Virus record (IMG/VR): IMGVR_UViG_3300008116_000011
Location: 110,438-174,437 of that record
Source: a virus
DNA: 64,000 nt
Direction: 5' to 3' (one strand)
The notes under the pieces were generated by a model that saw nothing but the letters and a program-made list of their open reading frames with translations, was not told where the DNA came from and made no database searches. How positions within the stretch are numbered: the first letter of the stretch is position 1; every line of letters begins with the position of its first letter. The translations under genes were made by a program, and so were the position numbers. Of this stretch, positions 4,084 through 57,764 are shown piece by piece.

Positions 4084-4404
4084 TTACATAAGATCCCTTA
4101 ACCATTGCAATACTTCCCTTAATTCATCATCTTTTAAATGATATATATCTTCAGAAGTAATATAACCTTTTTCATCAAAAGCATCAATAAAACCATATTC
4201 TAATCCTATACGCTCTAATTCCTCGCGTAAAACATTATAATACCCCACATATGGATCACCATCCCACTGATGTTCAGCTTTACGAGCTAAATTATTAAAT
4301 AAATCAACTATACCTAGGAATTGTGGTTGTACAGGTACAACTTTAGCCTCATTAATTCCTGCTAGTTTTTGCAGGCGTTGAGCTTCTGTGATGTACTGTT
4401 TCAT
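4084..4404 (-). CDS. Small protein with prohead-protease-type leader (candidate internal capsid protein)
   Basis: Function is unrecognised beyond the leader. The 106 residues start MKQYITEAQRLQKLAGINE then AKVVP. The first 19 residues form a basic amphipathic helix nearly identical to those of the genes at 49546 and 57384. The junction INE-A fits the T4 gp21 cleavage rule (I/L)xE before a small residue. The remaining 87 residues are acidic and helical. T4 packages internal proteins IPI-IPIII through such capsid-targeting leaders. By analogy I infer head packaging, although this copy sits among replication genes. The ATG is preceded, after only 3 nt, by an ATTTATA element shared with three other genes. 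Confidence 0.65.
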   Translation of the reverse strand: MKQYITEAQRLQKLAGINEAKVVPVQPQFLGIVDLFNNLARKAEHQWDGDPYVGYYNVLREELERIGLEYGFIDAFDEKGYITSEDIYHLKDDELREVLQWLRDLM

Positions 4405-37067: not shown

Positions 37068-38741
37068 TTAAGCAATACCAAGGGCGTTTAAGCCATTAAC
37101 AAACACTTTACCATAGAATTCAGGACGTACCATTTTCTTAGCGTAACGAGTCATGATACCTTTTCTTGGTACGAAAGTTTCTGGATCGTACACAAGAGGG
37201 GTCATCAACAATGGTACATAAGGAGCATAAACAGCACCTGATTCAAGGAACTGAGCACCTTTGTAACCCATTAAGATCACGTTATTGCTGAAGTAAGGGT
37301 TAACATATACTTTGAAACGAGAGTTCAAAGAACCGATCTTTTGGCTACCGAAGTTAAACACTTTCTCAAGATCAGCACCTGCATCAGAAGCATATCCTGG
37401 GATAGACTGCATGATAGTAGCGATCTGAGGAGAGATAACTAAGAAGTTAGCTTGACCACGAAGAGTCTTTTGTAAGATCTTGTTAGATACAGATTGTAAT
37501 ACAGTACCCAATGTTGCAAACCAACCACCTTGTGTGTTATAGAAACCACCAGTTGTAGTAGAAGTTTGAACGAAAGTTGAACCATTCCACAATTTGTTGT
37601 TTTCAGCTGACCAGTAACCAATAGTAGCTGCTTCTTCAGTTAACATAGAAAGGATTTCTAAGTCGATTTCCATTGCAATGTACTGAGAAAGAAGACCTGT
37701 TAATTCCGCTTCAGCGTCGATGTTCTGATAAGCGTTAAGGTCTTGAGCTAATTCTGGTGTCCATTGAGCCTTTAATTTACGAGTCTTAGCAACAATAGCA
37801 TCAGATTTTAACTGGATATTGATTGTTGGGATGTCGATTTGAGCAGGATCAGCGGCATTCGGAATAGCGATGTTAGTATTGTCAGCTTCGAAATCACCAC
37901 GTAAAGCAGGAGTTGTTTGCTTATTGTAGTACAATTCGATTGAACCAGAAGAGGTTGAACCAGTTAATGGGAAATTAACTACGAATTGTAATGCAGTAGC
38001 ACCACTACCACTCTGATAGTTAGTGAACTGTTGTAATACTACAGGAGCAGCAACTACAGAGCTACTTGGAATCCAAGCTTGTACTGACAAGAAGTCAGGT
38101 AAAGCTAAGTTAGAAGCTAATTGAGCATCAGATACATTGATTACATATAATGAACCAGTAGAAGACTCATAACGAGAATCCCAATCAACATCAGCTAAAG
38201 AATTAACTAAAGATGCAGAATAAGTAACAGATGCAGAGAATTGGTTAATTGAATAACCATATCTACCTTGACCATAAAGACCACCTGTTGGATCTACGTT
38301 AGTGATGTCATAATCAGTTGCCTGAACATCAGCTAATGAACCATAAAGTGATTTACCTTGCTGGAAAGGAGTTTTGTTATTACCATACTGGAAATCCAAG
38401 TAGAATACGAGGCCAGAAGGCATAGACATTGGTTGAACTGAAACGAAGTCTTTAGCTACGATTTCAGCAAATACACGGCGAACGAGTGGTAATGCGATAC
38501 CAGCCCAGTTTTCACCAGTTCCACCAAGCATAGAGTTGGTACCAGCAGTAATGTTGGTAGACTCAACTACTAATTGCTTAGCTTGGTTCTCAAGGATCAC
38601 AGCCATATTGTTTTTTTCAATTTCGCTGCCAATGCCCTCAAGAAGACCGCTCTTACTCCATTTGGTAGCAACCTTAGCAGCTTCTGCTTGTTGGCTCTTC
38701 CATGGATTAGCGCTTTCTAAAAGCATGTTTAAATTTTCCAT
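37068..38741 (-). CDS. Major capsid protein, T4 gp23-like
   Basis: This 557-residue capsid subunit (T4 gp23 is 521) carries conserved gp23 sequence: NWAGIALPLVRRVFAEIVAKDFVSVQPM (about 78-105, described here), GLVFYLDFQYG, and RGQANFLVISPQIATIMQ near 430. The N-terminal 60 residues are charged and helical and would be removed by the gp21 protease. VVE-S at E60/S61 fits the cleavage rule and lies near T4's own site at residue 65. It follows scaffold gp22 and is insulated downstream by a strong terminator, as expected for the most abundant protein. Confidence 0.95.
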   Translation of the reverse strand: MENLNMLLESANPWKSQQAEAAKVATKWSKSGLLEGIGSEIEKNNMAVILENQAKQLVVESTNITAGTNSMLGGTGENWAGIALPLVRRVFAEIVAKDFVSVQPMSMPSGLVFYLDFQYGNNKTPFQQGKSLYGSLADVQATDYDITNVDPTGGLYGQGRYGYSINQFSASVTYSASLVNSLADVDWDSRYESSTGSLYVINVSDAQLASNLALPDFLSVQAWIPSSSVVAAPVVLQQFTNYQSGSGATALQFVVNFPLTGSTSSGSIELYYNKQTTPALRGDFEADNTNIAIPNAADPAQIDIPTINIQLKSDAIVAKTRKLKAQWTPELAQDLNAYQNIDAEAELTGLLSQYIAMEIDLEILSMLTEEAATIGYWSAENNKLWNGSTFVQTSTTTGGFYNTQGGWFATLGTVLQSVSNKILQKTLRGQANFLVISPQIATIMQSIPGYASDAGADLEKVFNFGSQKIGSLNSRFKVYVNPYFSNNVILMGYKGAQFLESGAVYAPYVPLLMTPLVYDPETFVPRKGIMTRYAKKMVRPEFYGKVFVNGLNALGIA

Positions 38742-38763: not shown

Positions 38764-39888
38764 TTATTTAATGTTTGCTAACTTTTTCATCCTAGCAATG
38801 AAGTCGTTACTTTCAACAATTGCTTGTTTTTGTGGAGCAACGCCTGCTGCTTTAGATGCAAATCCTAAAGATTCTTTGATATGAGCTTTTCCAGATTTAG
38901 TAGCAAATGTTTCGTTTAATGATTCATAAACAAGTTTTGCTTCTTTAGCTGATTCAGCTTTATCAAATGCTTGTACAACCTTAATTTTTTGTGATTCAGT
39001 TAAGTTTTTAGACTTAAAGATTTTGTTAACATAAAGTAACTTAGCGTTTAACAAGTTAACTTCTTGAAGTTCTTGACGAAGAGTATTTACAGTTTCAAGA
39101 GCTAAATTTAGATCTTCCTGCATTTTTTTCTTCTTCTTGTAATCTTCAACTCCTTCTTCTTCAGCAGTGTCTTTTTTATCACCACGTTTAGAAGCAGGAA
39201 CGTCACCTTTGTTACCACCGTACTTTTTGTGTTTTTTACCTTCAGTAAGCTCGGTTTCTTCATCTAACAATTCAGCTAGAATTTCATCGAGGTTTACTTC
39301 TTCAATGTCTACAACTTCATCATCGGCTGTGTCAGGTAACTCATCAGACATTTTCATATCCGCAGATACGTCTATGTTTGCGTTACCATCACCACCCATT
39401 TCTTGAGAAACTATGTCGCGGATCATAGCTTCTAATTCATCTATGGAAAGTTCAGATACTTCTTTTTCTTCCTCTTCTGATTCTTCTTCGTCGTCTTCTA
39501 CATCTTCAACGTCTTCTTCGGCTTCGATTTCTTCTTCATCTTCAGCCTTTTTAGCTTCGTTTAATTCTGCATCAAGTTCGGCGAGAATTTCATCAAGGTC
39601 GATTTCGGCGATTGAATTATCGTCGTCATCATAATTCATACCTGACATTCCTTCCATTTTTTCTTTAGCCATTTCAGCTTCGATGTCATCAGTCATCTTG
39701 TCATCTAATTCATCGATCATGTCATCTTCTGTCAAGTCGTCCATCTTTTCTTGCAATCTTGCATTGAACATAGATGTTAAACGTGGCATAAAAGCTTCTT
39801 CAAGAGCGAGTTTAGCTTGAGCAAGAGCAGTTTCGCGAACAGCTTTAGCGTCAGCAATGGCCTCCTTTAAAAGGTCTTTTGTGTTCAT
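38764..39888 (-). CDS. Prohead scaffold protein, T4 gp22-like
   Basis: This 374-residue scaffold is extremely acidic in residues 40-190 (DDDD, EEDVEDVEDDEEESEEEEKE) and then has a Lys-rich segment and coiled coil. The start MNTKDLLKEAIADAKAV and the end VESNDFIARMKKLAN resemble gp22. Several xxE-A/G/S sites (LLKE-A, LTE-G, IVE-S) are candidate gp21 cuts; T4 gp22 is degraded during maturation. It lies between the protease region and gp23 in the T4 order. The roughly 130-nt leader upstream (39889-40019) has no gene but contains an ATATTTATTTA box near 40003. Confidence 0.9.
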   Translation of the reverse strand: MNTKDLLKEAIADAKAVRETALAQAKLALEEAFMPRLTSMFNARLQEKMDDLTEDDMIDELDDKMTDDIEAEMAKEKMEGMSGMNYDDDDNSIAEIDLDEILAELDAELNEAKKAEDEEEIEAEEDVEDVEDDEEESEEEEKEVSELSIDELEAMIRDIVSQEMGGDGNANIDVSADMKMSDELPDTADDEVVDIEEVNLDEILAELLDEETELTEGKKHKKYGGNKGDVPASKRGDKKDTAEEEGVEDYKKKKKMQEDLNLALETVNTLRQELQEVNLLNAKLLYVNKIFKSKNLTESQKIKVVQAFDKAESAKEAKLVYESLNETFATKSGKAHIKESLGFASKAAGVAPQKQAIVESNDFIARMKKLANIK

Positions 39889-40019: not shown

Positions 40020-40045
40020 AAAAACCGCGTTTCGATGCGATTTTT
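40020..40045 (-). terminator. Intrinsic terminator before the scaffold gene leader
   Basis: The minus transcript folds AAAAATCGC with GCGGUUUUU (9 pairs including one G-U, loop of 8), ending in a U-run. It overlaps the stop codon of the gene at 40044 and isolates the protease-leader operon from gp22-gp23. Confidence 0.65.
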
Positions 40046-40454
40046 ATTCAAAAGCTCTTTGGTAAGATTTAGCTGCTTCTTTTAAAGAGCTAGCGGCCCA
40101 TTTAAGTTGATATGCTGTTTCACTTAGATTATCTAATTTATTACTAATTTTTTCTAATTCACGTACATTATCAGGAATATCAAATATATCATATGGTTCA
40201 TATATATCAAAATATTCTTCAAATAATTTTTTTAAAACGTTTTCTGTATTTTCTAGATTTTGTTTAAGAGTTTCTAGTTGAGATGGATTGTTGATAACAT
40301 CACTTATACTTAAACTAGATAATTGATCCGCATAAGATTGAACTTTATCTGAAAAGAAATTTTCTTCTTTTTGAGCTTTAGCTACTAAATCATCTATGCT
40401 TTTTCTAGGAGGTGTTACTCTAGCTTCTTTTAGTATGTCATGAAGTTTAATCAT
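40044..40454 (-). CDS. Leader-bearing small protein of the head cluster
   Basis: This 136-residue protein starts MIKLHDILKE followed by ARVTPPRKS. LKE-A is a match to the prohead protease rule, and the same ILKE-AR junction begins the polyprotein at 57010. The rest is helical (FFSDKVQSYADQLSSL, LENTENVLKKLFEEYF). Its ATG overlaps the stop of the 42-residue basic gene (ATGA). It is inferred to be a prohead core or internal protein, as its location next to gp22 is where T4 has core proteins. Confidence 0.68.
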   Translation of the reverse strand: MIKLHDILKEARVTPPRKSIDDLVAKAQKEENFFSDKVQSYADQLSSLSISDVINNPSQLETLKQNLENTENVLKKLFEEYFDIYEPYDIFDIPDNVRELEKISNKLDNLSETAYQLKWAASSLKEAAKSYQRAFE

Positions 40455-40965: not shown

Positions 40966-41292
40966 TTATTTTGTCTCTTTTAATCCATAAGGTATACCTA
41001 ATACTCCATGAACTGCTCTTCTAAATGCTTTTTGAGTTTCCATTTGAATTGCTTTCATTACAAGTTCTTGTAAAGCAGGATTATTAATTAATAAAGGTAT
41101 TTTTCCATTTGAAGGATCATGATAAAATGCACTTAGTTTTATTCTCATCATTCCATGATCATTAATGTAAAGTTTAACAGATGGAACATCGTCCATTAAT
41201 TCTCGATCTGGAAGGTAATTGTGTTCTTCTTCATCAACAATTCCTGCTAATTCTTGCATTCTTTTAGATTCTGTAATGAATTGTTTTGACAT
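40966..41292 (-). CDS. Leader-bearing protein (candidate internal protein)
   Basis: The 108 residues start MSKQFITESKRMQELAGIVDEEEH, clearly paralogous to the leader of the next upstream gene (MSKQFITEAKRMQKLAGI). IVDE-E is the closest match to a protease site but is weaker than those at 4404 and 57764. The body contains DVPSVKLYINDHGMMRIKLS and a helical C-terminus. Function is not recognised. Placement next to gp21 supports a prohead core role. Confidence 0.65.
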   Translation of the reverse strand: MSKQFITESKRMQELAGIVDEEEHNYLPDRELMDDVPSVKLYINDHGMMRIKLSAFYHDPSNGKIPLLINNPALQELVMKAIQMETQKAFRRAVHGVLGIPYGLKETK

Positions 41293-41297
41293 TTTAA

Positions 41298-41747
41298 TTA
41301 TTTGTATGGGTTTTCCTTTGCTTTATTCCAATAAATTAAACTATCTTCACCAATAGAAAATTCATTAGAATGATTTTTTATATAATCTTCAGCATATCTC
41401 TTTAAAACATCAGCAGCTTCTGCTCCTGTCATGTCGCTAGAACCGAATGCAAATTTTTTAGTTCTATCATTTATTGAACTTCCTAAATCTAATTTTTTTT
41501 CATCACTCATTTTATTAAGAACGGGTCTGATGTTTTTTTCATAGAATGCTATTTGAGCTTTTCTATCAGCTTGTTGTTTTTGATCTAGTTGATGCACTTT
41601 AACTCCACCTAATATAGTAGCAGCTGTTAGTCCTAATCCAATAAGCCAATCTTTAAAACCTTCGTCTATTGTTTCTTCTTGATTTTCAGCAATAATGCCT
41701 GCTAGTTTTTGCATTCTTTTTGCTTCGGTAATAAATTGCTTTGACAT
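41298..41747 (-). CDS. Leader-bearing protein with one hydrophobic segment
   Basis: The 149 residues start MSKQFITEAKRMQKLAGIIAENQEE, sharing the leader with its downstream neighbour and the genes at 4404, 50544 and 57764. TIDE-G near residue 29 is a possible cut. A hydrophobic stretch DWLIGLGLTAATILGGVKV (about 33-51) follows, then a charged helical part. The membrane-like segment is unusual for an internal protein; it may be buried or may insert after DNA ejection. It starts 12 nt downstream of the gp21 gene. Confidence 0.65.
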   Translation of the reverse strand: MSKQFITEAKRMQKLAGIIAENQEETIDEGFKDWLIGLGLTAATILGGVKVHQLDQKQQADRKAQIAFYEKNIRPVLNKMSDEKKLDLGSSINDRTKKFAFGSSDMTGAEAADVLKRYAEDYIKNHSNEFSIGEDSLIYWNKAKENPYK

Positions 41748-41759
41748 TCTAGTTTAATT

Positions 41760-42401
41760 TTAATATCCAGGTAATTCACAAGTACAGAAACCAGCGCGAT
41801 TGCAAAGGATTTCTGTTACTAGTTCGTTAATTTTATCTAATTTCTTTTGTTCTTGTTTATTATATTGATTATATTGTTTAGATTCACTAACAATTTCCAT
41901 AAACGCACCTTGTGTTGATGGAGTTGATACGAAATCCCAACATAATAATTCAAAATCGGGTTGTACTTCAACAGTCTCACCGATTTGTTTTACAGAACCC
42001 ATACCACGAGATGAAATACCAATAGTAATACCTGCAATTAACAATGCTTTTAAAATATTACCTGATGGTGTTGGTAGTACTTCAATTTTTCCCATTACAT
42101 CATCTTTATCCCACCATAAATCTTTAATGTTATGACATACATTTTTTAAGTTGATGATTGGAGATTCTGGGTGGTCTAATTCACCTAGTGCTCTATTTTC
42201 TTTAATGTATGTGTCTTTATATTTTTGTACTTCTCTTTCAAGAGTATCTTTAGGATATACACGACCATTACCATTTTTTGCTTCAGCACGTTGTACCAAA
42301 CCTTGAACAATAAGACGTCCACCGTTGTTTTTAATAGATTCCTCCAACATTGATGGAGTAATATTAAAAGTAGTAATACGCTCTATTAATAGTTCTTTCA
42401 T
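41760..42401 (-). CDS. Prohead core serine protease, T4 gp21-like
   Basis: This protease matures the prohead by cutting scaffold, core, internal and capsid proteins. The 213 residues (T4 gp21: 212) carry ENRALGELDHPESP with candidate catalytic His77, and GITIGISSRGMGS with Ser130/Ser131, in the arrangement of the T4/herpesvirus-type prohead proteases. The substrate rule for T4 gp21 is (L/I)xE before a small residue, and many proteins here contain it. The gene follows a 543-residue core-region gene with overlapping ends and precedes the leader proteins and scaffold. Confidence 0.93.
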   Translation of the reverse strand: MKELLIERITTFNITPSMLEESIKNNGGRLIVQGLVQRAEAKNGNGRVYPKDTLEREVQKYKDTYIKENRALGELDHPESPIINLKNVCHNIKDLWWDKDDVMGKIEVLPTPSGNILKALLIAGITIGISSRGMGSVKQIGETVEVQPDFELLCWDFVSTPSTQGAFMEIVSESKQYNQYNKQEQKKLDKINELVTEILCNRAGFCTCELPGY

Positions 42402-44032
42402 TAGTTAAGATTATATCCTTTTTCTCTCAATTTATAAATAACTTCACTCCAAACAGCATCATTATATCTTTTTCCTACACTATCTTCAAACATAGAAAAT
42501 ACATTATCTAAATCAGATAATCTAGGATTTTCAATATCATTTGTATTGATGTGGTCCATAAAATTATCTATTATCATAGAAACAGCATCTCTTCCAGATG
42601 GAGGTGCATCAAGATCTCCTTCGTAATCATCATAATCGTCAGAATTTCTTCTAACTATTAATGCACTTCTCATTTCTCTTTCAGCTTCAGGATCACCCGC
42701 AGCTTCCATTCCAGCAGGACCCATTTCATCTAATAGTTCGTTAACCATTTTTTTAATGGTTTCTTTTAATCCAGGTTTATAACTATTGCTAGACTTTCCA
42801 AGATCACTAGCGCCAGGTGAGATAGTATTAGGAAGTGCACGTCGAGCAGCATCTACAGGATTTGTAGACTGTGATGGTTTTTTCTTTTCAACTGCATCAG
42901 ATGTAAAATTAGAACCTTTATCATCAGGATCAGCATCTAATGCTTTCCTTACAGCTGATATTATTTGTTGTTTTGAAACTCCATCAAGTCCTGTATAGTT
43001 AAATATAAGTTCAAGTAGTCCATCTAATTCACCAGCCATATTTATAAGCTTAAGAGCTTGAAGTAGAGATGGTGCTTGTTGTAATCTTCTTAAAAAGGTT
43101 TGTTCATCAGGAGTGTTACTTAAAGTATTTTCTTTAATGTTTGATTCATTAAAAGCATTAGTGTCTCTTATTTTTTCAGGAGTCATTCTTGATAAAGCAG
43201 TAATGACACTATCTACATATCTACTATCAACTTGAGCTGATCTCATTGCTTTGTTTAGATATCCAACAATGTCATCTTTATATTCCTTCCATGAGCCTTG
43301 TATTCTATCTGTTACACTTATTTTTTTAACAGGATTATTTTTGTTATCTTTATAAAAAGTAATAGCAATATATTCATCCCTATTTCCTGGGCGCTCAAAG
43401 GCCATATCAAATCCAAAAGTACCATCTTGATTATTGTACCATCTTATATCAGTTAATTTAAGAGGAGACTCTTTATTTCCTGAAAAAGAGGTAGGTTGGA
43501 TAGATAATGGGTGGTTAGATAAATAGTCTTTTTGAATATTTTTTAAAGAATTAAATTCACTACTTTGAATTTCTTTATCACTAACTGAGGTTAGTTCAGT
43601 TAAACTTTTTTTAGATTCCTTAACGATACGAATTTTCTTCATTTCGTTTTTCTTATCCTTATCTTTAGCAGATTCTAAACCATCAGGTCTATTTTTGCTT
43701 TTGATTGGCTTGCTAACTTCTTCCTTAGGAATATCTGTTACAGTAGTAGCAGGATAAATACCATCTTGCTCGTCAACTTCCGGCTCTTGTACTACTTTTT
43801 TGTACTTAGCTGGTTGGGTTGGGTAGTCATATGATGGAGCTTTGTCAGGAGTGCCTTTAACAGCGTTACCTTCGTTTAATAATCCTTTAGATTTAAGGAT
43901 CTTAACTGAGTCATCAAATGAGTTATGGTTAGTTACAAAGTTAGGAAATAACATTCTTGCATTACGCAAAAATTGATGTTGGGTCATTCTTCCCTCTTTT
44001 AACTCTTGGTATTGTACGCTAATACTTTTCAT
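42401..44032 (-). CDS. Large prohead-core-region protein
   Basis: I do not recognise this 543-residue protein. It starts MKSISVQYQELKEGRMTQHQFL; ELKE-G and LLNE-G (about residue 53) are candidate protease sites. Residues 60-160 are Pro/Lys/Asp-rich and low-complexity. The middle has NQDGTFGFDMAFERPGNRDEYIAI. Near 310, EQTFLRRLQQAPSLLQALKLINMAG looks helical. Late residues are acidic. It lies between portal and protease, where T4 has the small core genes 67 and 68, so a head-core function is plausible. Confidence 0.6.
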   Translation of the reverse strand: MKSISVQYQELKEGRMTQHQFLRNARMLFPNFVTNHNSFDDSVKILKSKGLLNEGNAVKGTPDKAPSYDYPTQPAKYKKVVQEPEVDEQDGIYPATTVTDIPKEEVSKPIKSKNRPDGLESAKDKDKKNEMKKIRIVKESKKSLTELTSVSDKEIQSSEFNSLKNIQKDYLSNHPLSIQPTSFSGNKESPLKLTDIRWYNNQDGTFGFDMAFERPGNRDEYIAITFYKDNKNNPVKKISVTDRIQGSWKEYKDDIVGYLNKAMRSAQVDSRYVDSVITALSRMTPEKIRDTNAFNESNIKENTLSNTPDEQTFLRRLQQAPSLLQALKLINMAGELDGLLELIFNYTGLDGVSKQQIISAVRKALDADPDDKGSNFTSDAVEKKKPSQSTNPVDAARRALPNTISPGASDLGKSSNSYKPGLKETIKKMVNELLDEMGPAGMEAAGDPEAEREMRSALIVRRNSDDYDDYEGDLDAPPSGRDAVSMIIDNFMDHINTNDIENPRLSDLDNVFSMFEDSVGKRYNDAVWSEVIYKLREKGYNLN

Positions 44033-49545: not shown

Positions 49546-50544
49546 TTAATCTTCATAATAAGGTTCTTCCTCATAATCTTCAGGAGGTTGTTCTTCATTA
49601 TTTATTCTATCCATTTCTTTAATAGCATATGCTTTAGCATCTTCTATACTATCAAACATTTCTGAGTCTTTAACTTTAGCATTTACTTCATCAGAACGCA
49701 CCATGTATTTTTTATTAGGAAATTTAAATATAATAACAAGATGGTAATCATTTTGCCATGCTATATTATATGAATAAGGGCGTTCATAATATCCTATAAC
49801 AACTCCATCTACTGGGTCGTAATATTCTTCCCCAATATCTGTGCTATCTGCTTTCCAACTATCTGGGAGTGAAATATTAAGAAGATTTTCTGGTTTAGCT
49901 ATAGATGTAGTAGGTACAATTTTAGATTCATTGGTACCAGCATATTCTTGAGCAGCATCTGCTAAAGAGTCTGATACTGCTTCTCTATCACTAGTATCAT
50001 AATCTATGCCCCAAAAAGTATAAATAATTCCATATGATGTTGCTATTTTATCATCATACTCTTCTTTATCTATATCACTTAGATTATTATATCTATCATC
50101 AGGTATAGTCCACTCATCTTCAGTCTTATTATAAGTAAATCCAGCATCTAATAAATTTTTAACTAATTGAGGAGCAAAGTTATCCATTACTCTAAAGTGA
50201 GTAATTATGTTAGTATAATCTGTAATAGTGTCTACAATGTTTTCTTCATCATTACTAGAATCCTCCTCAATTATATCTATTAAAGAATCTGCTATATCGT
50301 TGTTTACTTGAGGACTATCAACTGTTTCTTTAAATCCTCGATAAAGAATATCATTACTATCTATTTCATTAAAATATTCTTGTTTAGTATCTGCAATAAT
50401 ATTTATTATATTTTGAATATCATTTCCTGTAAATCCATATTTTTTTAGAGTAAACAGTTTATTATTACCAGGTACAACTCTAGCCTCATTAATACCTGCT
50501 AATTTTTGCAAACGTTGAGCTTCTACTATGAATTGTTTTTTCAT
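49546..50544 (-). CDS. Two-module leader protein (candidate internal protein)
   Basis: This 332-residue protein starts MKKQFIVEAQRLQKLAGINE then ARVVPGNNK, the same leader and junction as at 4404 and 57764. A second junction TNE-SKIVPTTS occurs near residue 205, followed by a compact segment with SWKADSTD and RPYSYNIAWQNDYHLVIIFKFPNKKY. Cleavage at both would give a 20-residue leader and two domains of about 185 and 127 residues. Module 1 is acidic and helical. The end is highly acidic. The stop is followed by a terminator. Head packaging is inferred from the T4 internal-protein rule. Confidence 0.65.
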   Translation of the reverse strand: MKKQFIVEAQRLQKLAGINEARVVPGNNKLFTLKKYGFTGNDIQNIINIIADTKQEYFNEIDSNDILYRGFKETVDSPQVNNDIADSLIDIIEEDSSNDEENIVDTITDYTNIITHFRVMDNFAPQLVKNLLDAGFTYNKTEDEWTIPDDRYNNLSDIDKEEYDDKIATSYGIIYTFWGIDYDTSDREAVSDSLADAAQEYAGTNESKIVPTTSIAKPENLLNISLPDSWKADSTDIGEEYYDPVDGVVIGYYERPYSYNIAWQNDYHLVIIFKFPNKKYMVRSDEVNAKVKDSEMFDSIEDAKAYAIKEMDRINNEEQPPEDYEEEPYYED

Positions 50545-53466: not shown

Positions 53467-54807
53467 TTAAATGTTCATATTCATTAGATCAATAAGTATT
53501 TCTTTTCTAATTAAACTCTCAGCTACATAAATTCCTTGTGCACCGGATACAGTAATACCACGAGCGCTTAAGGCATCACCTACAAAGTGTACATCAGGAA
53601 ATGATGTTAATGATAGATCATGGTAATTAACTAAAGGCTCAGGTGATAGATATTTTACTTCAGGCATATAAATACCCCAATCATCTCCCATTTCAGGAAA
53701 TACTAATTGCATATCATCAATAAACTTCTTAATATGTTGAGCATATTCTTCACCAAAAGCTTCAAACAAAGGATCTAATGTATCTACAGGAACAGCAGAT
53801 ACTATACTACCTTCAGATGTAATTCCAGGTTGACGAGTATTATTAGGTGAATAATAAGTTCCAGTACCATTAATTTGAAGTTTTTTAACTGCCTCTCTAC
53901 TCCATTCAAATGGATTTTCAATACCCTTAATTTCCATCAATATACCAAAATTGGTCATATCGTTCCTGAATTCCTCTCCTTTTTTTGCGTGGCCATTATA
54001 ACTAATATTGCCATAAGTTTTTTCAACAGCCACATAAGCAGCGTTATTGTTAGTACAAAAACTACGAAGAGAAACGTTATCAAATTTCTGATAAAGCTTA
54101 AAATCATAGGATACATCAATTAATTTTTGAAAATATTTTTGTGGTGCTTCAAAACGAACTCCAATTTGTACTGATTTAGGTTCAGTAGGTAATTGATAGT
54201 CATTAGATAATTTTTGTGCAAAGTCAATACCTGATTTTCCTACAGCAAATATTAGTGTATCATAAGATACTCCTACTAGGTGAGAATGAAGTTTACGAAG
54301 CTGTATAATATTTTCTTTAAAATTGATTTTATAAACATCTGTATTCCAATGAAATGTAATACCTTTATCTAGTAAATATTGGTACCATGCTTTAGCAATT
54401 TCATGTAAATAATTAGAACCAATATGCCATACAGGAAACATTCTTAAACCAAAATATGGTTTAATAAATTCAGGTTCTTCCTCAGGATTAGACATGAATA
54501 TTTCTTCTGGTTTAGGGTGGAATCGTCTGAAATTAGATATTACCTGGTCCATTAATTCCATTGCTTTTTCTTCACCACAATATTTTGACAATTGACCTCC
54601 AATTGCTGTGTGGTAAGTTAATTTACCATCAGACCAACCGCCAGCACCTAACATACCTGTCATTACTTCTTCAGGTCTACGGTGATGTGGGTCATTACCT
54701 TTGTCAATAATAGTAATTAAATTACCAGGGTATCCCTTATCTACAAGTTTAGTTGCCGCGTTGATACCAGCTACGCCGGCTCCTACAATTACAATTCTTT
54801 TATCCAT
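53467..54807 (-). CDS. FAD-dependent oxidoreductase (possible auxiliary metabolic gene)
   Basis: This 446-residue flavoprotein begins with a Rossmann signature MDKRIVIVGAGVAGINAATKL (GxGxxG at 9-14). The middle contains GTYYSPNNTRQPG. The C-terminus has FVGDALSARGITVSGAQGIYVAESL, the second FAD-binding segment. It matches the class of uncharacterised FAD-dependent dehydrogenases (COG2509-like) rather than a defined enzyme. Substrate and role in infection are unknown; host redox or cofactor metabolism is possible. It overlaps the upstream 158-residue gene by 19 nt, so the two are co-transcribed from the promoter at 55271. Confidence 0.78.
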   Translation of the reverse strand: MDKRIVIVGAGVAGINAATKLVDKGYPGNLITIIDKGNDPHHRRPEEVMTGMLGAGGWSDGKLTYHTAIGGQLSKYCGEEKAMELMDQVISNFRRFHPKPEEIFMSNPEEEPEFIKPYFGLRMFPVWHIGSNYLHEIAKAWYQYLLDKGITFHWNTDVYKINFKENIIQLRKLHSHLVGVSYDTLIFAVGKSGIDFAQKLSNDYQLPTEPKSVQIGVRFEAPQKYFQKLIDVSYDFKLYQKFDNVSLRSFCTNNNAAYVAVEKTYGNISYNGHAKKGEEFRNDMTNFGILMEIKGIENPFEWSREAVKKLQINGTGTYYSPNNTRQPGITSEGSIVSAVPVDTLDPLFEAFGEEYAQHIKKFIDDMQLVFPEMGDDWGIYMPEVKYLSPEPLVNYHDLSLTSFPDVHFVGDALSARGITVSGAQGIYVAESLIRKEILIDLMNMNI

Positions 54808-55390: not shown

Positions 55391-57010
55391 TTATTCCCAA
55401 TCTTTTTTTAATTCTTCCATCAATTCAACAGCACGTTTTTGAGCTCCATAGAATGAATTATATTCTCCTTCACTAATAAAATCACCAAAGGCATAATTCC
55501 CCATTACATTAAACTTGCCATTTATTTTTTTAAAAATATAAATAACATCTGAGTGGGTTTTATCCCACCCTTCCATAGGAGCTTCGTATGCTTCTATAAG
55601 TTCTCCATATGGATCATATGGGTCATATCCAAATTCTTCAGCATCTTCATCATAATTATTTTCATTATATTCATCTATACTACTTTTATCCCATTTAGAC
55701 CACCCATCAGGAGTTTTTATTGGGCTAGCAGGGACCACACGTGCTTCATCTAGATTATTTTTAAATGGAAATCCATCTGGTTTAGATGTTAGCCAATAAC
55801 TCATTTCTTGTCTAGCCCAATCTTCTACTTCTTGATCTGTAACCTTTGCTGCATCCTCAAATCTGTTAAATCCATCAAAGAAATAAGTAGAGGATTCATC
55901 ATATCCTTCTGAGTCATCCATAAATGAATCAACAGATTCAATTTCTTCAGGATCAATTACTGATTTAAGGTAATTAGCAATAGCTTCAGAGTTTATTTCT
56001 AGGTTTTTACTTCCATTTTTATTATAACTTAATGTAATATATTTAGGTTTCATTCCAACAGGCATAACACGTGCTTCACTTATTTCATCTAATTTTATAT
56101 CAGTAAATCTAGTAACATAATCTACAAACTCTTCAGTACAATCTTCACCATCAACATATATTTTTTTATATTTTTTATAGTAGTCTACCAATATATCACC
56201 TTCTCCTACAGTTACTGTGTTAACTACTAAACTTTCATTAGAAAACTTAGGGGTATTTATTTCATCTTTAGACATTATATCAAAACTATGAAAAAATTCA
56301 GGATCAACATCATAATAATCTTGAAGTTTTTTTACTAAATCTGCTCGTTTAAGTGATGCCATTGGAGCTGGGACTATACGTGCTTCAAGTAGATTTTTTT
56401 GCAATTCTCTTTGTGCATAATCTACAAATTCATTACTGGCAAAATAAGATTCAGAATCAGGAAATGAATCTGTGCCATAATATTCATTCTCTAATTTGTA
56501 ATATATTAAATCTTCTATATCTTTATATGAAAATTGTCCTTTGCTATCAACATATTCATTTTCATAATCACTACCATAGTACTTAGACACTAATTTTCTT
56601 ATATCACCAATATCAATAGAATCTAAGTAAGATCTCCAAAATAATCTAGCTAAATATAATTGTACTTCTTTATTATCTTCGACAAATTCAAGTAGTTCCT
56701 TATCAGTTAATAAACTAACATTAGCTCTAGTAACAATATCCGATTCACCTCCTCTTACAATTTCTGCGTTGGTTTCTATCATTTTAGATTTGATATACTT
56801 TTCAACTAAAGGACCCAATACTCTATCCTCAAACATTGCTTCAACTACTCCCATATTATTTCGATAATAATTGTTATCGGAAATAATATTAGCTATTGCC
56901 TTAGATATTATAGAATTAATCTGGTTGAAATGATCAGGACTTCCTCCGGAAAATGAAATACCTTTAGGTACAATACGTGCTTCTTTTAATATATCGTATA
57001 ATTTTTTCAT
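55391..57010 (-). CDS. Candidate capsid-targeted polyprotein with four protease-type junctions
   Basis: This 539-residue protein starts MKKLYDILKE then ARIVPKG. The same junction type recurs inside: LLE-ARIVPAP (E209), ISE-ARVMPVG (E312) and LDE-ARVVPAS (E422). All fit the T4 gp21 rule (L/I)xE before Ala. Cutting at all four would release a 10-residue leader and pieces of about 199, 103, 110 and 117 residues, each starting ARxxP. The pieces are acidic and helical, not obviously homologous with one another. I know of no function. The repeated junction suggests head-to-tail fusion of several internal proteins. Confidence 0.68.
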   Translation of the reverse strand: MKKLYDILKEARIVPKGISFSGGSPDHFNQINSIISKAIANIISDNNYYRNNMGVVEAMFEDRVLGPLVEKYIKSKMIETNAEIVRGGESDIVTRANVSLLTDKELLEFVEDNKEVQLYLARLFWRSYLDSIDIGDIRKLVSKYYGSDYENEYVDSKGQFSYKDIEDLIYYKLENEYYGTDSFPDSESYFASNEFVDYAQRELQKNLLEARIVPAPMASLKRADLVKKLQDYYDVDPEFFHSFDIMSKDEINTPKFSNESLVVNTVTVGEGDILVDYYKKYKKIYVDGEDCTEEFVDYVTRFTDIKLDEISEARVMPVGMKPKYITLSYNKNGSKNLEINSEAIANYLKSVIDPEEIESVDSFMDDSEGYDESSTYFFDGFNRFEDAAKVTDQEVEDWARQEMSYWLTSKPDGFPFKNNLDEARVVPASPIKTPDGWSKWDKSSIDEYNENNYDEDAEEFGYDPYDPYGELIEAYEAPMEGWDKTHSDVIYIFKKINGKFNVMGNYAFGDFISEGEYNSFYGAQKRAVELMEELKKDWE

Positions 57011-57012
57011 TC

Positions 57013-57372
57013 CTATCTTACAATATATTCTTGACCACCTACTTTAGCTGAGAGTATACTGCGTAGATCAATCATTCTATAACCGTTTTTTTGTGCATCA
57101 AATACAGGTAGTAGGTCTTTAGAAGCAGCATCATAAGGTAAATCACCACCTTTTAGATGTCGTCTAACACCTAAACGACCGTTTAGTGTTCTTGTAGAGC
57201 CATCAGTTCTTTTAACAAATGTTACAGTAAAAAATTCACCTTTACCTGAATTGCGAGGGTCTGTGGCTTTAATTTTATCAATTAATTCTTCACGACTAAT
57301 AGGAACTGCTTGTTCTTTAATAAGTCTTTTTACTTCAGTAAGAAGTTGTTGTTTAAATTGGCTAAGTTTCAT
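57013..57372 (-). CDS. Small protein of the leader-protein cluster
   Basis: This 119-residue protein starts MKLSQFKQQLLTEVKRLIKEQAVPISREELIDKI. The leader-like basic helix ends LIKE-QAVP, which resembles but does not match the xxE-A junction. The body contains FFTVTFVKRTDGSTRTLNGRLGVRRHLKGG and PVFDAQKNGYRMIDLRSI, giving the impression of an SH3-like or beta-barrel fold. I do not recognise its function. It lies 2 nt upstream of the polyprotein gene, so they are co-expressed. Confidence 0.6.
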   Translation of the reverse strand: MKLSQFKQQLLTEVKRLIKEQAVPISREELIDKIKATDPRNSGKGEFFTVTFVKRTDGSTRTLNGRLGVRRHLKGGDLPYDAASKDLLPVFDAQKNGYRMIDLRSILSAKVGGQEYIVR

Positions 57373-57383
57373 ACTAATATTAA

Positions 57384-57764
57384 TTAAACAGGAATATAAA
57401 GCATCATATCACCATTACCATATTCTATAATTTCTAAATCATATCCGGCAACAGTAAGTTGTTTTTTTAATTCATATACATCGTCTACAACCCAATCGTC
57501 AAATTCACCAGGATCATAATCATCTCTTTGAAGTTCACATGAAAGTTTAGAGGTTCCTGGGTCCATAGAAAAATGAAATCCTTGAGGAGTAGCATAAATA
57601 GTACCACCCCATTCATCAGTAGTAAATTCAGGGCCTATTGCTTCCCATTCTTCTGCAGATATTGAACCCTTAAGAGGGCGTTTCATCCTTTGAGGCACAA
57701 TTCTAGCTTCGGTAATACCTGCTAGTTTTTGCAAACGTTGAGCTTCTGTAATATACTGCTTCAT
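57384..57764 (-). CDS. Leader-bearing protein (candidate internal protein)
   Basis: Using the ATG at 57764 (MKQYITEAQRLQKLAGITE then ARIVPQ) gives 126 residues; the frame extends upstream to 57779 but the leader homology fixes the start. The leader is almost identical to those at 4404 and 50544. The body is a compact acidic domain (EFDDWVVDDVYELKKQL near 95). An ATATTTATA box lies 3 nt upstream of this ATG, as at 4404. It is inferred to be packaged in the head and cut by gp21. Confidence 0.66.
   Translation of the reverse strand: MKQYITEAQRLQKLAGITEARIVPQRMKRPLKGSISAEEWEAIGPEFTTDEWGGTIYATPQGFHFSMDPGTSKLSCELQRDDYDPGEFDDWVVDDVYELKKQLTVAGYDLEIIEYGNGDMMLYIPV

Follow-up and report, generated by a model that had tools for sequence, protein, structure and literature searches.

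The polyprotein strategy is familiar from RNA viruses. In tailed phages, the closest described systems include the internal proteins IPI, IPII and IPIII of T4, small and diverse cargo proteins each encoded by a separate gene with its own tag. The 10-residue N-terminal tag is cut off after a Glu, before Ala-Arg or Ala-Ser, by the S77-family prohead protease gp21. Within the tag, positions 4 and 7 are for targeting and positions 8 and 10 for processing, and Asp in place of the Glu at 10 blocks the processing (PMC9026906). IP1-3 are inhibitors of GmrSD-type restriction enzymes (PMC12373910). The T4 prohead proteins gp22, gp67 and gp68 are also multi-site substrates of gp21, which cuts them into short fragments (PMC5694885). 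In phiKZ and SPN3US (gp175/gp245, family S80), many virion proteins are cut after xxE, several times each; the extra cuts fall in propeptides that are discarded, and no chain of separate cargo domains was found for these phages in the open-access literature (PMC10052503, PMC5694885). Polyvalent proteins, such as P1 DdrB, deliver several domains to the host as one product. They have been likened to RNA-virus polyproteins already, and their release has been proposed to occur via an embedded metallopeptidase domain (PMC5512222). Tags, gp21 and the multi-site cutting of core proteins are already known. In the open-access literature, we found no account of a tailed phage whose head protease cuts a cargo polyprotein, subscription papers and preprints being outside this search.

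We analyzed a window of 64,000 bases, bases 110438-174437 of a 174,437-base IMG/VR virus record. The source virus is uncultured and T4-like, and its closest isolate is Flavobacterium phage immuto, with a gp23 53% identical. One gene in the window had been predicted from its sequence to encode a chain of capsid-targeted cargo proteins with gp21-type cleavage junctions. The gene and its parts are as follows (a slash marks an expected cut; L243 is a 1,329-aa homologue described below).

55391-57010, minus strand: putative cargo polyprotein gene, 539 aa (open reading frame and translation)
56981-57010, minus strand: putative capsid-targeting sequence and propeptide MKKLYDILKE, 10 residues, cut expected after E10 (layout like that of T4 IPII and IPIII)
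56384-56980, minus strand: putative cargo module A1, residues 11-209, ending NLLE/ (49% identical over its full length to L243 residues 575-767)
56075-56383, minus strand: putative cargo module A2, residues 210-312, ARIVP...EISE/ (34% identical to L243 residues 768-866, E=1e-12)
55745-56074, minus strand: putative cargo module A3, residues 313-422, ARVMP...NLDE/ (43% identical to L243 residues 1102-1209)
55394-55744, minus strand: putative cargo module A4, residues 423-539, starting ARVVP (copies in L243 at residues 981-1101 and 1210-1329)

The open reading frame had an ATG start and no interruption. The P1 Glu residues were found exactly where the original prediction had placed them, at residues 10 (ILKE/ARIVP), 209 (LLE/ARIVP), 312 (ISE/ARVMP) and 422 (LDE/ARVVP); each was followed by the ARxxP start claimed for the pieces, and all four sites fit [LI]xEAR[IV]xP. 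The description "four junctions inside one gene" holds for the number of sites and has to be refined for their position: because the first site is the N-terminal tag junction, only three are internal. As judged from its sequence, the gene is a 10-residue propeptide followed by four cargo pieces of 199, 103, 110 and 117 aa with three internal junctions. The term "self-assembled" in the earlier title is supported by nothing and is not needed.

The tag was compared with the T4 sequences, which we translated here (IPII starts MKTYQEFIAE/ARV, and IPIII starts MKTYQEFIAE/ASV). MKKLYDILKE/A is of equal length, L4, I7 and L8 are hydrophobic, E10 is present, and A11 is small. The sequence satisfies what defines a T4-type tag of about 10 residues: positions 4 and 7 hydrophobic, a processing residue at 8, Glu at 10 and a small residue next. 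The internal sites kept the processing residues (L or I before xE/A) and not the full targeting pattern, as would be expected if a single address suffices for a chain that is to be cut at several sites.

The head genes needed for this comparison are in the same window.

41760-42401, minus strand: gp21-type prohead protease, peptidase S77 (Pfam PF03420, E=1.9e-30; PHROG_207, E=2e-60)
37068-38741, minus strand: major capsid protein gp23 (Pfam Gp23, 1e-78; alignment with T4 gp23)

The gp21-like protease that had been claimed at 41760-42401 was supported by its Peptidase_S77 match, by PHROG_207, a head maturation protease family, and by an alignment with T4 gp21. The two proteins are 32% identical, and GEL[DN]HP, SSRG and D.V..PS (His, Ser and Asp) are kept. 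A gp21-type protease in the same genome, a criterion for T4-type internal proteins, is therefore present. By analogy with T4, we presume that it is the processing enzyme of the chain, the processing itself being inferred. It presumably also cuts gp23, at QLVVE/STN (inferred cut position).

No domain above threshold was found in Pfam and PHROG scans of the 539-aa protein, and the full-length protein gave no tblastn match in 50,697 phage records. The whole-protein viral scan missed relatives that were recovered by segment-wise scans with single modules. The 1,329-aa homologue (L243; G022:147-4136, contig IMGVR_UViG_3300046007_008394) is 35% identical to the 539-aa protein over 564 alignment columns (E=1e-77), and its gene has the same neighbors on both sides; no domain was found in it with PHROGs, the only collection searched. 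A second copy, incomplete at the contig end, is present in G023 (IMGVR_UViG_3300046010_010929). The two come from separate metagenome assemblies and differ at 2 of 2,893 bases. Ten EAR[IV]xP sites were found in the 1,329-aa frame (residues 27, 128, 351, 449, 574, 767, 866, 980, 1101 and 1209), together with DE/AQVTP at 235 and LDE/AIITP near residue 10. The chain consists of A1 to A4 in the same order (49, 34, 43 and 33% identity, respectively) and eight further pieces, each after E/A[RQIV]. It can be divided into eleven modules of 98-193 aa and a spacer of 17 residues; the count is twelve with the spacer and eleven with a lower limit of about 100 aa. Two internal duplications were seen: A4 is present twice, and two other modules are paralogous to each other. 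In a less related phage (L089), the same slot is filled by one tagged 151-aa protein; one, four or twelve pieces per slot are thus found across phages. A DNA pattern for EAR[IV]TPVGM matched only two contigs, both of this relative, and its contigs are without a protease gene.

Chance, or a recent tandem duplication of one functionless linker sequence, could in principle create such repeated sites, and the relative does carry near-identical linker DNA, ACTACTAATGAAGCCCGCGTTACACCT, at two places, so some linkers arose by copying. As a general explanation this is hardly plausible. When the 539-aa protein was shuffled with its composition preserved, the strict pattern [LI]xEAR[IV]xP occurred 0.00005 times on average and at most once in 20,000 trials, so that four sites stand against 5e-5 expected. 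The pattern was found 8 times in about 56,000 predicted residues of the source genome and once in about 396,000 predicted residues from the scanned T4-like genomes other than this one and the syntenic relative, where it is background at 0-1 per genome; the control patterns (DAR, QAR, ERA and reversed) also gave 0-1 per genome. In the source genome, moreover, the linker codons past GAAGCACGT differ, and E, A, R or Q, and P were kept while the module bodies diverged to 33-49% identity.

The sites are less uniform at P3, where 19 of the 28 listed sites have Leu, Ile or Val, 6 have Thr and 3 have Lys. T4-like gp21 is expected to prefer Leu or Ile there. Thr and Lys (TNE/A and KSE/A) occur at many sites of the relative, in contrast to the Leu/Ile of T4 gp21; therefore, some of its sites may be slow or its protease may be different. 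Among the 28, the match at residue 1074 of C1:117110-121018 is probably due to chance.

Two of the modules were also found in other proteins. A3 is 47-67% identical to modules in otherwise unrelated head-tag proteins (L119 and L236-L242). We examined windows of 16 residues on both sides of A3 in its eight protein contexts, several of which are not otherwise related: [LIVM]xE/[AG] occurred before A3 in all eight and after it in six, compared with a background of 5% of windows for all proteins and 12% for the same proteins. ARxxP is missing from most of these contexts, so what they share is the cut site rather than the complete motif. In L257-L262 and L265, A4 stands alone as a tagged protein, and in L267 it is fused after NLDE/AG. 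The original prediction had proposed modeling the segments as separate domains, and A4 on its own was predicted to fold: its AF2 model, from a 12-sequence alignment, is a compact alpha/beta domain (pLDDT 88.9, pTM 0.81). Searches with this model in the PDB and in viral predicted structures gave no match at E<=0.001. The model is good evidence, as far as a prediction can be, that A4 is a domain. In the AF2 model of the full 539-aa protein (7-sequence alignment), all four junctions were in segments below 50; this is weak evidence of disorder at the junctions because the full-length model was poor overall (pLDDT 50).

These data bear on whether the gene could encode a degraded scaffold or core protein like gp22, gp67 or gp68, whose pieces would be cut into peptides, leave the head and be waste rather than cargo. 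Such cutting by gp21 is established in T4 (PMC5694885), and A3 also occurs within L236-L242 proteins encoded beside the head cluster. We nevertheless regard this reading as quite improbable. The T4 core proteins are degraded to peptides, not to domain-sized cargo with single-gene counterparts, whereas the pieces here are 100-200 aa long and occur as single tagged genes in many phages, the predicted fold of A4 has no residue run below 50 pLDDT, and the genome has a separate gp22-like gene adjoining gp23 (38764-39888).

Further modules were found both fused and alone. The C3 module is fused after NLKKE/ARVVP in the source genome, G000 (C1:3779-5818), and is a gene of its own, MIKLTDILNE/ARVVP, in G023. 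Conversely, the H module has its own gene in G000 (AVKE/AKVIP) and is fused after SLEE/ARVTP in G023; at the same SLEE/ point, G000 has an SLRDWF module instead, which is a separate gene in three other phages (L120, L148 and L162) with a tag ending E/SLR[DN]WF. We then compared internal modules with single genes all against all, using complete open reading frames only, because frames cut at contig ends confounded the comparison of all frames. Among the 165 pairs, 45 sites were at the module start versus 18.5 expected, a number reached in none of 5000 permutations. Some of the pairs are related to one another, so the figure lends support without amounting to a strict probability. Judging from these alignments, modules are exchanged whole, with breakpoints at the predicted cut site.

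Single cargo behind a tag is also encoded in the window itself, as found by motif scan.

57384-57764, minus strand: single-cargo neighbor, tag MKQYITEAQRLQKLAGITE/ARIVP (LQKLAGITE/ARIVP)
49546-50544, minus strand: two-cargo gene, tag ...LQKLAGINE/ARVVP at residue 20, internal TNE/SKIVP at 206
4084-4404, minus strand: single-cargo gene, tag MKQYITEAQRLQKLAGINE/AKVVP (LQKLAGINE/AKVVP)
40044-40454, minus strand: single-cargo gene, tag MIKLHDILKE/ARVTP, adjoining the gp21/gp23 cluster

The second module of 49546-50544 is a remote relative of A4 (hhalign E=4e-6, probability 87%). An uncut multidomain protein with conserved linkers, that is, an injected "polyvalent" effector acting as one chain in which ARxxP is structural, has to be considered at this point. 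Polyvalent multidomain phage proteins are known (PMC5512222), and ARxxP is more uniform than cleavage demands, with Arg at P2' in 24 of the 28 sites and Pro at P5' in all 28 (the latter fixed by the search pattern). We consider this unlikely, as E/ARxxP also stands right behind the tags of single-domain proteins, where a linker would be purposeless, the A3 borders stay xE/[AG] even without ARxxP, and module swaps break at the Glu. Like polyvalent proteins, the 539-aa chain would deliver several domains as one product. Their criterion, recognizable effector or enzyme domains and often an embedded peptidase, was not met by it; in the absence of an embedded metallopeptidase, the head protease acting in trans is the candidate for release.

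We are fairly confident that the product of the 539-aa gene is a cargo polyprotein that is directed to the head and cut by the gp21-like protease. The sequence anatomy, the homology of the modules, the interchange between tagged single and fused forms and the presence of the protease were observed here, whereas packaging, cleavage, injection and cargo function are inferred. The earlier reading as a chain of capsid-targeted cargo agrees with this comparative evidence (the tag, the longer homologue and the modules found single or fused), the cut itself remaining an inference. According to the mechanism that we propose, the chain would be made late, and its first 10 residues, a T4-type targeting sequence, would draw all of it into the core of the prohead. 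As the head matures, the gp21-like protease would cut behind the Glu of the tag junction and of each of the three internal E/AR[IV]xP linkers, releasing four small, acidic, folded proteins that would be kept in the head with the DNA. They may then be injected into the host and probably act in host takeover or anti-defense, like the T4 internal proteins. Since IP1-3 inhibit GmrSD-type enzymes, anti-defense is the leading guess. The chain may have been built by joining once separate tagged cargo genes, the tags of the inner modules having shrunk to the processing half (hydrophobic P3, Glu at P1 and small P1') since a chain needs only one targeting half.

The gene shares with IPI, IPII and IPIII the 10-residue tag, the predicted cut after Glu, the S77 protease and small diverse cargo. 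In contrast to them, it has four pieces per chain, and its relative twelve, with internal cut sites, so that the criterion of a single cargo per tag is not met, and its cargo has no sequence relationship to the T4 proteins. The basic-cargo criterion is not met either: the modules (12-23 kDa) are acidic, with a pI of 4.3-4.6, unlike mature IPII and IPIII (pI 9.6), and this charge argues against simple DNA binding. The several cuts predicted per protein after xxE are also a likeness to the phiKZ and SPN3US head proteins. Of what defines a viral polyprotein, independently folding proteins in one reading frame with sites for a virus-encoded protease between them, the modules and the sites were seen here, and the cut is inferred. 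We judge the gene to be probably a true cargo polyprotein, a variant of the tag and prohead-protease system, with milder fusions elsewhere in the group. It appears probable, with more reserve, that the prohead protease of T4-like phages in this group is a general polyprotein processor, the cargo lying behind one tag with E/ARxxP linkers as swapped plug-in modules, up to 12 co-packaged equimolar proteins per gene. If so, tailed phages would have a polyprotein strategy of their own, with one address label and many passengers freed in the capsid by the existing maturation protease, and the packing of numerous cargo proteins in a fixed ratio would be explained. Unrecognized injected proteins would have a sequence signature, after E/ARxxP or at xE/[AG] module borders, and the chain would offer a natural blueprint for putting several proteins into one phage head.

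Other genes of the window were also noted. Two adjoining genes between the protease and gp23 (40966-41292 and 41298-41747) are tagged MSKQFITE[SA]KRMQ[EK]LAGI; they lack the ARxxP motif and are likely to encode additional head cargo. The polyprotein gene adjoins a gene for an FAD-dependent oxidoreductase (53467-54807), which has hundreds of viral relatives, the kept ones being 75-85% identical. At 57013-57372, a protein of family PHROG_2267 (weak WYL_2/Sm-like match) is syntenic with the polyprotein slot.

Additional fused proteins were seen outside the window. The gene at C1:3779-5818 of the source genome (L003:3779-5818, minus strand) is a second polyprotein-like gene of 679 aa with a KKLCPKGKAYY module, a module ending IDE/ARVLP, E/SLRDWF (weak DUF5872), a PepSY-like stretch (weak) and C3 after KKE/ARVVP. 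In the cultured phage immuto (vB_FspM_immuto_2-6A), KNV73_gp079 (L234:4007-6532) is a fused multimodule protein of 841 aa with the tag MKKLIRIVEA and xE/G or xE/A sites, namely VNE/G, MLE/A and KNE/A. Proteins of 561-595 aa from related phages (L237-L241, e.g., L241:5218-7005) start with MTTLELYRKHKSG and by eye resemble the window gene 42401-44032 beside gp21; A3 is inserted in them between xE/G and MME/A. Finally, a short zinc-ribbon module (CxKCGxxW...CHKCxxDN) was a recurrent spacer between cargo modules (L089, L094, L131 and L162).
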